Assembly: GCA_902604245.1 (NCBI GenBank)
Contig: CACKXQ010000004.1
Location: 23,896-87,895, forward strand
From: an uncultured Pelagibacteraceae bacterium
Lineage (GTDB): Bacteria; Pseudomonadota; Alphaproteobacteria; Pelagibacterales; Pelagibacteraceae
Reading direction: 5' to 3'
Length of the DNA: 64,000 nucleotides
A model generated the notes under the pieces. It worked only from the letters and a program-made list of their open reading frames with translations, had not been told where the DNA came from and ran no database searches. Position numbers and translations under genes: made by a program. Shown one piece after another: positions 35,307 through 43,930 of this stretch; the first letter of the stretch is position 1, and each line of letters opens with the position of its first letter.

Positions 35307-36155
35307 GTGGAAATAGTTACAAAAATAGCTCCAATCTCACTTGCTCTTATAATGCTAGGTCTTGGACTAGGATTAACTGGTCGTGATTTTTTAAGAGTGC
35401 TTAATAATCCAAAGGATTTTATAGTTGGTTTTATTTGCCAATTGATATTATTGCCAGTAGTTGCATACATCATTGTATTAATAATGGATTTACCCATTGA
35501 GATTGCTTTAGGTATTATGATAATCGCTGCTGCACCTGGAGGCGTGACTACAAATGTTATGACAAAATTTGCAAATGGAGATGTTGCATTATCTATCTCT
35601 TTAACCGCTATAATAAGTCTAATCAGTATTATTTCTGTGCCTTTTATTATTTTTAAATCTGCAGATTTATTAGGGAGCACAGGCATGTCTTCCAATCTTA
35701 CCATGACAGGTATTGCATTAAAAATGGCTTTAGTTGTTACCGTTCCTGTAATCTTAGGGATGACTATCAGAAAATTTGCGGTAAACTTTGTTTCGTCAAA
35801 TATTTCTATAATTGAGAAGATTACAATAGTTTTATTTCTAATTGTTTTTGCTGCAATTATAGTTGAAGAAAAAGATAATATTTTAAATTATTTTAAACAA
35901 GCAGGTATAGCTGCACTTACTCTTAATGTTGTTATGATATTGCTGTCATATTATATAGCAAAGTTCTTTGCATCAGGCGTTAAGCAAAGAAAGTGTATTT
36001 CAATTGAGTGTGGTCTTCAAAATGGGACATTAGCAATATTTGTGGCTACACAAATATTTAATGATATTAGTTATGTCATTCCAACAGCTGCATATGCCCT
36101 TATAATGTATTTAACAGGTTTTATTTTAATTTTTGTCCTACGGAAATCTACTTAA
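35307..36155 (+). CDS. Bile acid:sodium symporter (BASS) family transporter
   Basis: MLGLGLGLTGRDF; IIAAAPGGVTTNVMTKFANGDVALSISLT; ECGLQNGTLAIFVA. Confidence 0.92.
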   Translation: MEIVTKIAPISLALIMLGLGLGLTGRDFLRVLNNPKDFIVGFICQLILLPVVAYIIVLIMDLPIEIALGIMIIAAAPGGVTTNVMTKFANGDVALSISLTAIISLISIISVPFIIFKSADLLGSTGMSSNLTMTGIALKMALVVTVPVILGMTIRKFAVNFVSSNISIIEKITIVLFLIVFAAIIVEEKDNILNYFKQAGIAALTLNVVMILLSYYIAKFFASGVKQRKCISIECGLQNGTLAIFVATQIFNDISYVIPTAAYALIMYLTGFILIFVLRKST

Positions 36156-37113
36156 TATTCATTTTGCCAAATATCTTAAAGATTAAATAAGCAAGAGAGT
36201 GAACATTTTTCTCTTGTAGTTTAATTGTATCAGTTAAAGCTTTGTCTTTCATTTTAACGTTAAATAATTTTTTTTTGTTAACACTTATATATTTATTTTT
36301 TAACAAATAATTTAATTTCCTTACCACTGTTGGTCTGGGAATATTAGTTATTTCTGAAATTGACATTGTGTTAACCCCAGTCTCAGGAACTTTAATTTTA
36401 TTTTCTTTCCACTTTGAAAAATTCCATCCATTTGCTTCATAAGATTTTGTAACAAGTGAATGCCACATTATAACCATTCCAACCGAAAATATTTCAAGAT
36501 CTCCTACTTGTTTTTTCCATCTATTTGTAAAAATAAAAATAAATTCACAAAAAAAATACCAACAATATGTAAAATTGTTATTAATTTCATTTAAGATTTC
36601 ATCAAATTGCTTTGACTGAATGATAAGGTTATTTTTTTTACATAATTCAACAATTTTTGAGAGCAATGTACTTAAATTTTTAAGTGTGCTTTTTGATTGA
36701 ACTAATTTAAAAGCTGATCTGTCTATATAAATATTTTTGTGTACTTTTTTTAATACACCAAACTCTTCTAAGCGAAGAATTTTTCTGCGTACACTTTCTT
36801 TTGGAATGTTTAAATTTCTCGATATTTCAATAATGTTTATTCTGCCTAGTTCTAAGGATTTATCATATAAAAAAAAACCATCATAACTTTCCACAAGTCC
36901 ATTTTTTATGTAATAAGCAAAATCTTTTTGTATTAGATAAAGAATTATTAGATATTTTTCTATGTCTTGAAATTTGTTAAAGGAGGAATTTACCCATTCA
37001 GATAATAATTTGTAGTAAATGGGAGCGATTTCATCAAAATTTTCTATAATAATTTTATGAATATTTTTTTCGCTTAATTGTGATGAGTTTGTAATCATTT
37101 TCCGCAAACCCAT
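36148..37113 (-). CDS. Uncharacterised regulator with two winged-HTH segments
   Basis: IPKESVRRKILRLEEFGVLKK and IPRPTVVRKLNYLLKNKYISV; HTH-like repeats in N- and C-terminal halves. Confidence 0.7.
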   Translation of the reverse strand: MGLRKMITNSSQLSEKNIHKIIIENFDEIAPIYYKLLSEWVNSSFNKFQDIEKYLIILYLIQKDFAYYIKNGLVESYDGFFLYDKSLELGRINIIEISRNLNIPKESVRRKILRLEEFGVLKKVHKNIYIDRSAFKLVQSKSTLKNLSTLLSKIVELCKKNNLIIQSKQFDEILNEINNNFTYCWYFFCEFIFIFTNRWKKQVGDLEIFSVGMVIMWHSLVTKSYEANGWNFSKWKENKIKVPETGVNTMSISEITNIPRPTVVRKLNYLLKNKYISVNKKKLFNVKMKDKALTDTIKLQEKNVHSLAYLIFKIFGKMNIK

Positions 37114-37204
37114 TTTAAACTTTTCACCCCATTTTGGACATTAAATAAAATTTGATTAACCCATTTTGGTCACTTGAAGAAATAAAAATACTCAATTTGG
37201 TGAC
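37106..37204. promoter_or_regulatory. Cluster of CCCATTTTGGACA-like operator repeats
   Basis: CCCATTTT at 37109, 37128, 37160 and variant CTCAATTTGG at 37191; two spacings of 31-32 bp. Confidence 0.65.
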
Positions 37205-37249
37205 ATACAAAATAGTAAAGAAATTTTTTTCTGTTTAAATGCGTTATTT

Positions 37250-37462
37250 ATGAGTTACAATATTCAAAATAGAGCATCTAATATTGAAATTTCTTCTCAA
37301 TTAACAGGTGACAATAATATTGATACCCCTCAAAAAGTAAATATTGATGCTCTAAAGTCTAAAATCAGAGCTCAAGAAAAAAAAGAAAACTTTAAGAATA
37401 AAGCAATCTTTGTATCACTATTTATTGGATTAGGAACTATTGGATATTTTGTTTCGAGTTAA
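37250..37462 (+). CDS. Small hypothetical protein with C-terminal TM helix
   Basis: 70-aa ORF divergent to regulator. Confidence 0.6.
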   Translation: MSYNIQNRASNIEISSQLTGDNNIDTPQKVNIDALKSKIRAQEKKENFKNKAIFVSLFIGLGTIGYFVSS

Positions 37463-37554: not shown

Positions 37555-37890
37555 ATGAAACCATTTGCAGGATATTTAATTTTAGCTTTAGGAATCACAA
37601 CAGGTATAGCAGCAAATAGTTTTGCTAAAATTTCAGATGGTTTTACAAAACTAACACCAACTATTGCATGTCTACTTTTAATGTCTGTTACAATGTTTTC
37701 TTTGGCCAAAGCAATGTCAGTAATACCTGTTGCATTTAGCTACTCAACTTACAGTGGTCTAACAGTTGCTGGCGTAGTTCTATTTGGTATTTTGAAATAT
37801 AATCAAGTCCCTAATGTTTATGGGTTAATTGGTATTTGCTTAATTGTAACTGGGGTTATTATGGTAAATTATCTAGGACGAGCTGGTTAA
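37555..37890 (+). CDS. SMR-family (EmrE-like) small membrane transporter, atypical
   Basis: 111 aa; FAKISDGFTKLTP, IPVAFSYSTYSGL; Glu14 equivalent replaced by Gly. Confidence 0.7.
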   Translation: MKPFAGYLILALGITTGIAANSFAKISDGFTKLTPTIACLLLMSVTMFSLAKAMSVIPVAFSYSTYSGLTVAGVVLFGILKYNQVPNVYGLIGICLIVTGVIMVNYLGRAG

Positions 37891-43910: not shown

Positions 43911-43930
43911 ATGTCTAAAATGGGTTCAAC
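43911..43930 (-). promoter_or_regulatory. Operator-like site GTTGAACCCATTTTAGACAT
   Basis: Matches CCCATTTTGGACAT at 37128 in 13 of 14 positions. Confidence 0.55.

Follow-up and report, generated by a model that had tools for sequence, protein, structure and literature searches.

MarR-like regulators are mostly repressors, and the typical member is a homodimer of ~140-residue chains, each with a winged-HTH between dimerising helices, bound to a palindrome. TrmB-type regulators join an HTH to a sugar-binding C-terminal domain, LysR-type regulators of divergent genes act from shared intergenic sites, and Rep_3 initiators (RepE, pi) carry two winged-helix domains that bind direct repeats. The locus analysed here lies in a 64,000-nucleotide stretch of DNA from an uncultured Pelagibacteraceae bacterium (the window) and combines a regulator of two winged-HTH units with repeated sites in front of a divergent gene for a 70-aa protein. 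Literature searches on the motif strings brought up no recognisable bacterial operator among the papers listed, those on a SAR11 regulator beside a BASS transporter found no paper, and those on winged-helix or SAR11 regulation returned nothing directly relevant. The features are given below in window positions, with distances counted from the 70-aa start codon.

35307 to 36155, + strand: BASS-type (SBF) transporter gene (Pfam SBF, E 1.4e-31)
36148 to 37098, - strand: regulator gene, two winged-HTH units (316 aa from 37098; 321 aa from 37113)
37109 to 37116, - strand: partial CCCATTTT copy, an 8-base match out of the 32-bp register
37127 to 37140, - strand: putative operator copy, TGTCCAAAATGGGG on the regulator strand, at -123
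37159 to 37172, - strand: putative operator copy, TGACCAAAATGGGT on the regulator strand, at -91, the conserved distal site
37190 to 37203, - strand: degenerate putative operator copy, TCACCAAATTGAGT on the regulator strand, at -60, 3 mismatches
37213 to 37218, + strand: weak -35-like hexamer of the 70-aa promoter, first T in 31/31 non-redundant loci
37232 to 37240, + strand: extended -10-like element TGTTTAAAT of the 70-aa promoter, from the anchored alignment
37250 to 37462, + strand: 70-aa protein gene, proposed main target

Repeated sites in the window

The window sequence reads CCCATTTT at 37109, CCCATTTTGGACA at 37128-37140, CCCATTTTGGTCA at 37160-37172 and CTCAATTTGG at 37191, which bears out the repeats reported in a preliminary description of this DNA, together with the intervals of 32 and then 31 bp from 37128 to 37160 to 37191. 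Its count of four copies stands for the three in register (37128, 37160 and 37191), most relatives having two, and fails for the copy at 37109. That copy was rejected as an operator, and is probably not a functional one, because it falls outside the 31-32 bp register: it lies 19 bp from its neighbour, is without the GG(A/T)CA half, and has a resembling sequence at that offset in near relatives only. It had also been said to overlap the regulator start codon, which is probably not so; the most likely start is the next Met at 37098 and not 37113, because the frame assumed from 37113 is interrupted at codon 4 by a stop in the relatives L067 and L070. The copy at -123 is conserved at the same distance in the near relatives L011 and L073, and the degenerate copy at 37190-37203 fills the conserved proximal position; the window series of -60, -91 and -123 has one period more than usual, with the register kept.

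The whole-genome motif scan that had been proposed was run on the 1.07 Mb assembly and found exact CCCATTTTGGWCA matches at 37128 and 37160 only, single sites with one or two mismatches occurring elsewhere in the genome at about the control rate. First-order shuffling of the 151-bp intergenic region, repeated 20,000 times, never gave a pair spaced by 31 or 32 bp. Reading the repeats as RNA was rejected (no Rfam match).

Conservation across SAR11

Relatives of the regulator were found in 40 of 61 genomes of the genus, with one weak match in another family of the order. The GTDB contigs yielded 468 candidate regulator loci; among the best 80 of the 468, which were retained, nearly all are from Pelagibacteraceae or Pelagibacterales. 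Because closely related single-cell genomes make up most of the collection, non-redundant subsets were used.

Two sites of the form TGTYCAWWWTGGGTT, on the regulator strand, precede nearly all intact regulator orthologues, and they are spaced by 32 bp in 76 of the 84 measured loci and by 31 bp in the other 8. Conservation of the motif ahead of orthologous regulators, on which the preliminary description had staked its claim, was thus upheld by footprinting in the genus, as was the spacing that it took to place the sites on the same face of the DNA. The site is 14-15 bp long, TGTYCA-WWW-TGGGTT, and asymmetric. An unbiased 8-mer count recovered CAAAATGG and its neighbours in up to 17 of 28 intergenic regions, compared with no more than five regions for any GC-containing 8-mer in the shuffle control. 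In whole-genome pattern searches the pair, with one mismatch allowed, was present in 17 of 37 same-genus genomes, at one place in each and always in the regulator promoter; it was absent from 24 genomes of another family, and the reversed-pattern control gave 0. These genome-wide statements on the regulon come from consensus pattern searches with few mismatches allowed, so weak single sites could escape them. Both the putative operator and its predicted target (see below) are well supported by comparison between genomes.

The regulator and its homologues

By sequence, the regulator is a fused internal duplication of one MarR-like unit. Its N-terminal and C-terminal halves align with each other (hhalign probability 95.9, E 5.9e-9), Pfam TrmB/HTH profiles match both HTHs with no full-length family, and the AlphaFold2 model (pLDDT 85.5, pTM 0.86) has the same order of elements twice. 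The whole-regulator model matched no solved structure (best E 0.13). With one unit, the N-terminal half, as the Foldseek query, MarR entries were among the best matches, which were weak (TM 0.35-0.40 to the query, E > 0.03). A defence-system reading and a phage origin were considered and rejected: the PADLOC matches are to CARF/Csa3 and cover the HTH only, and tblastn found no match in phage records.

Most of the more distant homologues found in the class have a single unit, as do those of a sister genus in the same family, although the length of some would accommodate two. The exact palindrome CCCAWWWTGGG stands upstream of 4 of the 21 homologue loci outside the two-HTH clade, an own-genome paralogue included, and is absent upstream in the other 17; it reached at most 1/21 in any of 3000 shuffles and 0 in the downstream control. 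The SAR11 site can be read as this palindrome made asymmetric, as would follow from binding by a single fused molecule whose two HTHs have diverged.

The own-genome paralogue (L010, G000:C18:13730-14668) is ~27% identical to the regulator and has the palindrome CCCATAATGGG just ahead of it; two further exact palindromes (locus positions 2805 and 2868) precede the next gene, a predicted lipoprotein-like ORF. Single-unit homologues of other alphaproteobacterial families have the exact palindrome ahead of them in L205 (G269, position 2095), L213 (G458, 1339) and L226 (G456, 1153), that of L205 (ACCCATTTTGGGT) separating the regulator from a divergent ORF with, by eye, the look of a flavin oxidoreductase. 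In the sister genus, three CCCATTTT copies at an exact 20-bp spacing were observed before the single-unit homologue (L200/L209 of G198, and L211 of G475).

Predicted promoter architecture and proposed mode of action

Promoters were sought in an alignment of 31 non-redundant loci anchored on the proximal site, with a consensus that is not calibrated for SAR11. A T at +23 occurs in 31/31 loci and a T or G at +25, which makes for a weak -35. At a constant distance from the proximal site there follows an extended -10, TG(N)TTWAAT, its hexamer after a 17-bp spacer. With few exceptions the aligned loci have the 70-aa start codon at +56 to +61. If the predicted promoter is right, transcription would start near the 70-aa AUG and the two site centres would fall at ~-51 and ~-83. 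The placement is activator-like by virtue of the inferred -10, since the sites would then lie upstream of the predicted core promoter and not over it. On the other side, in the clade of L032 and L034-L039 the regulator gene has a TTGACA-like -35 and a possible -10 with the distal site between the two, and in other clades the distal site overlaps a possible regulator -10, so that the same binding would repress the regulator. From this geometry we infer the sign of regulation on both promoters.

The reading that we favour, and hold to be rather probable, is that the regulator is a single-chain pseudo-dimer which reads the sites and serves as activator of the 70-aa gene and as repressor at its own promoter. 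The repeats would be the operators of the adjacent regulator, whose two fused MarR-like winged-HTH units would form a built-in pseudo-dimer within one chain. Each asymmetric pseudo-palindrome would be bound by one molecule, with one HTH per half, and at a spacing of three helical turns (32 bp) a second molecule would sit on the same face of the DNA as the first. Bound just upstream of the weak -35 and extended -10, they would activate the gene for the 70-aa membrane protein, and binding at the distal site would repress the promoter of the regulator itself. A signal presumably belongs to the model as well.

The alternative that survives best has the regulator bind these sites as a repressor of both divergent genes. 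MarR-like topology is what such a repressor might have, and the sites adjoin both promoters; however, they stop ~10 bp short of the predicted -35 of the 70-aa gene, with no overlap of its core promoter, and the weakness of that -35 suggests that an activator is needed. We consider common repression unlikely.

The gene probably served by the sites

The distance from the proximal site to the 70-aa start codon is 56-61 bp in 87 of the 90 loci and 71 bp in the other 3, the typical positions of the two sites being about -58 and -90. Among 27 non-redundant loci its spread is small (SD 2.7 bp) compared with that to the regulator start (SD 8.5 bp), the regulator starts in this comparison being ORF-based and partly uncertain. 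In six loci the regulator is inverted (L028-L031, L033 and L175), and all of them retain a site ahead of the 70-aa gene, unchanged in orientation and lying at -57 to -59. Two of the six (L029 and L031) carry both sites, and the other four have a single site within three mismatches. Here the 70-aa gene is convergent, and the BASS gene lies at the 5' side of the regulator wherever the contig covers it; in the tree of regulators the six loci form one cluster, modestly supported (78). In a seventh case, L141 of genome G023, the 70-aa gene directly follows the BASS gene and has both sites, with no regulator between them. Because the sites hold their distance where the regulator is flipped or missing, the 70-aa gene, and not the regulator alone, is probably what they control.

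These results bear directly on the proposal that the array serves to repress the regulator alone and that the 70-aa gene is a bystander. The array does lie directly ahead of the regulator, in several clades the candidate -35 (TTGACA-like) and -10 elements of that gene lie on either side of the distal site or across it, single-unit homologues also bear a palindrome ahead of themselves, and L029 and L031 have an extra near-match before the regulator. Against this, the distance is loose to the regulator start and tight to the 70-aa start, and the sites stay at the 70-aa gene where the regulator has turned around or is absent; we regard exclusive autoregulation as improbable. The preliminary description had put its emphasis on autoregulation, which fits less well, the register being fixed to the 70-aa gene; its further suggestion of a control region in common with the divergent 70-aa gene is supported by footprinting in the genus. 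Conserved sites do lie between the regulator gene and its predicted target, in the intergenic DNA that the two share, as in an autoregulated divergent operator array.

It is also conceivable that another protein, e.g., a global regulator or a nucleoid protein, reads the sites, given that binding by the neighbouring product is a prediction and that G023 keeps the sites at its 70-aa gene with a distant, solitary homologue elsewhere as its sole detected regulator homologue. The pair, however, occurs once per genome and only in genomes with the regulator, and a related palindrome precedes homologous regulators in other alphaproteobacterial families, which makes this very improbable. The regulator and the 70-aa gene are found together in 38 genomes, with exceptions of 2 and 2 and neither in 19 (Fisher p 1.4e-11, a figure inflated because the two genes adjoin). 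Chance repetition in AT-rich intergenic DNA, despite the control-rate frequency of single mismatched sites elsewhere, can be dismissed, as spacing, register and sequence are conserved across regulators down to ~30% identity and shuffling never produced the pair.

Further targets were considered and rejected. A one-mismatch site at 43912 of the window (TGTCTAAAATGGGT), flanked by genes for an ABC binding protein and an aminotransferase, is present in near relatives only and lost elsewhere, and it is kept even in G004, where no regulator was found. Other exact single sites in relatives lie at unrelated genes or within genes, with no shared target among those inspected.

The 70-aa protein and its neighbourhood

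According to the family alignment, the 70-aa proteins have a variable N-terminus, a K/R-V-(N/D)-(I/V)-(N/D)-x-L motif, a basic stretch and one C-terminal hydrophobic helix; no Pfam or NCBIfam profile matches the family. Some loci (L168, L172, L174 and similar) contain two tandem family copies ahead of the regulator, the second diverged (e.g., MQIKSSTK...). A gene of the small multidrug resistance (SMR) type (37555-37890, + strand, Pfam E 3.5e-16) is located directly downstream of the 70-aa gene in the window. In four inverted loci (L176, L177, L179 and L180) the 70-aa gene adjoins an ORF of 809-814 aa whose N-terminus by eye resembles a FAD-dependent dehydrogenase, and L178 has a different ORF.

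Of 126 regulator loci, with overlapping records treated as separate, 120 have the BASS gene within the flank examined. Its orientation relative to the regulator is convergent in 95, co-directional in 15 and divergent in 10, and therefore its position is conserved and its direction is not. The regulator system may be functionally tied to the BASS transporter, and our guess from the neighbourhood is that the 70-aa protein is a transporter accessory.

A broader scenario, which we offer tentatively and think doubtful as a whole, is that the fused SAR11 pseudo-dimers arose from alphaproteobacterial single-unit ancestors, that CCCA-N3-TGGG drifted to an asymmetric site after the fusion, and that the outcome was a one-gene, paired-site regulon with the 70-aa protein, small and single-pass, as a possible accessory subunit of the BASS transporter.

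Significance

SAR11 bacteria are described (PMC13198564) as having relatively few transcriptional regulators, and for that reason a conserved set of regulator, operator and target lends itself well to the reading of regulation in uncultured cells. Loci with rearrangements serve as a natural experiment that can tell a target from a bystander. Comparing the fused regulator and its asymmetric sites with single units and their palindrome allows a test of how operators became asymmetric after fusion, and attention is drawn to an uncharacterised small membrane protein kept near a transporter gene.

Comparison with known regulators

The MarR family (MexR, OhrR, MepR, YusO) shares with this regulator the unit topology of helix-helix-(strand)-HTH-wing-helix, divergent or autoregulated promoters and pseudo-palindromic operators, and supplies several of the best structural matches to the N-terminal half. 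The predicted element order fits the MarR fold twice, with weak structural matches. The window protein scored 14.4 bits (E 0.043) against MarR_2, an orthologue 20.8 and a single-unit homologue 25.5, all below the curated cut-off of 27. In contrast to MarR proteins, the regulator has two units in one chain of 316 aa, duplicated and on an asymmetric operator, with TM < 0.5, and its operators are direct copies at 32 bp with a predicted activator placement.

The first HTH resembles the TrmB type (PF01978, 27.7 bits compared with a curated cut-off of 25.6), but the match spans ~40 HTH residues, with no TrmB effector domain found and no C-terminal domain match in Pfam. The Rep_3 initiators are alike in their duplicated winged-helix units in one chain and their directly repeated sites, and unlike in that the regulator here is chromosomal and its sites are spaced by 32 bp; no Rep_3 match was obtained in Pfam at E<=1, and RepE was outside the 50 best PDB matches. 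LysR-type regulators differ in protein fold and motif, which are unrelated, but come close to the logic that we propose for this locus, in which shared intergenic sites would serve to activate the neighbour and repress the regulator itself.
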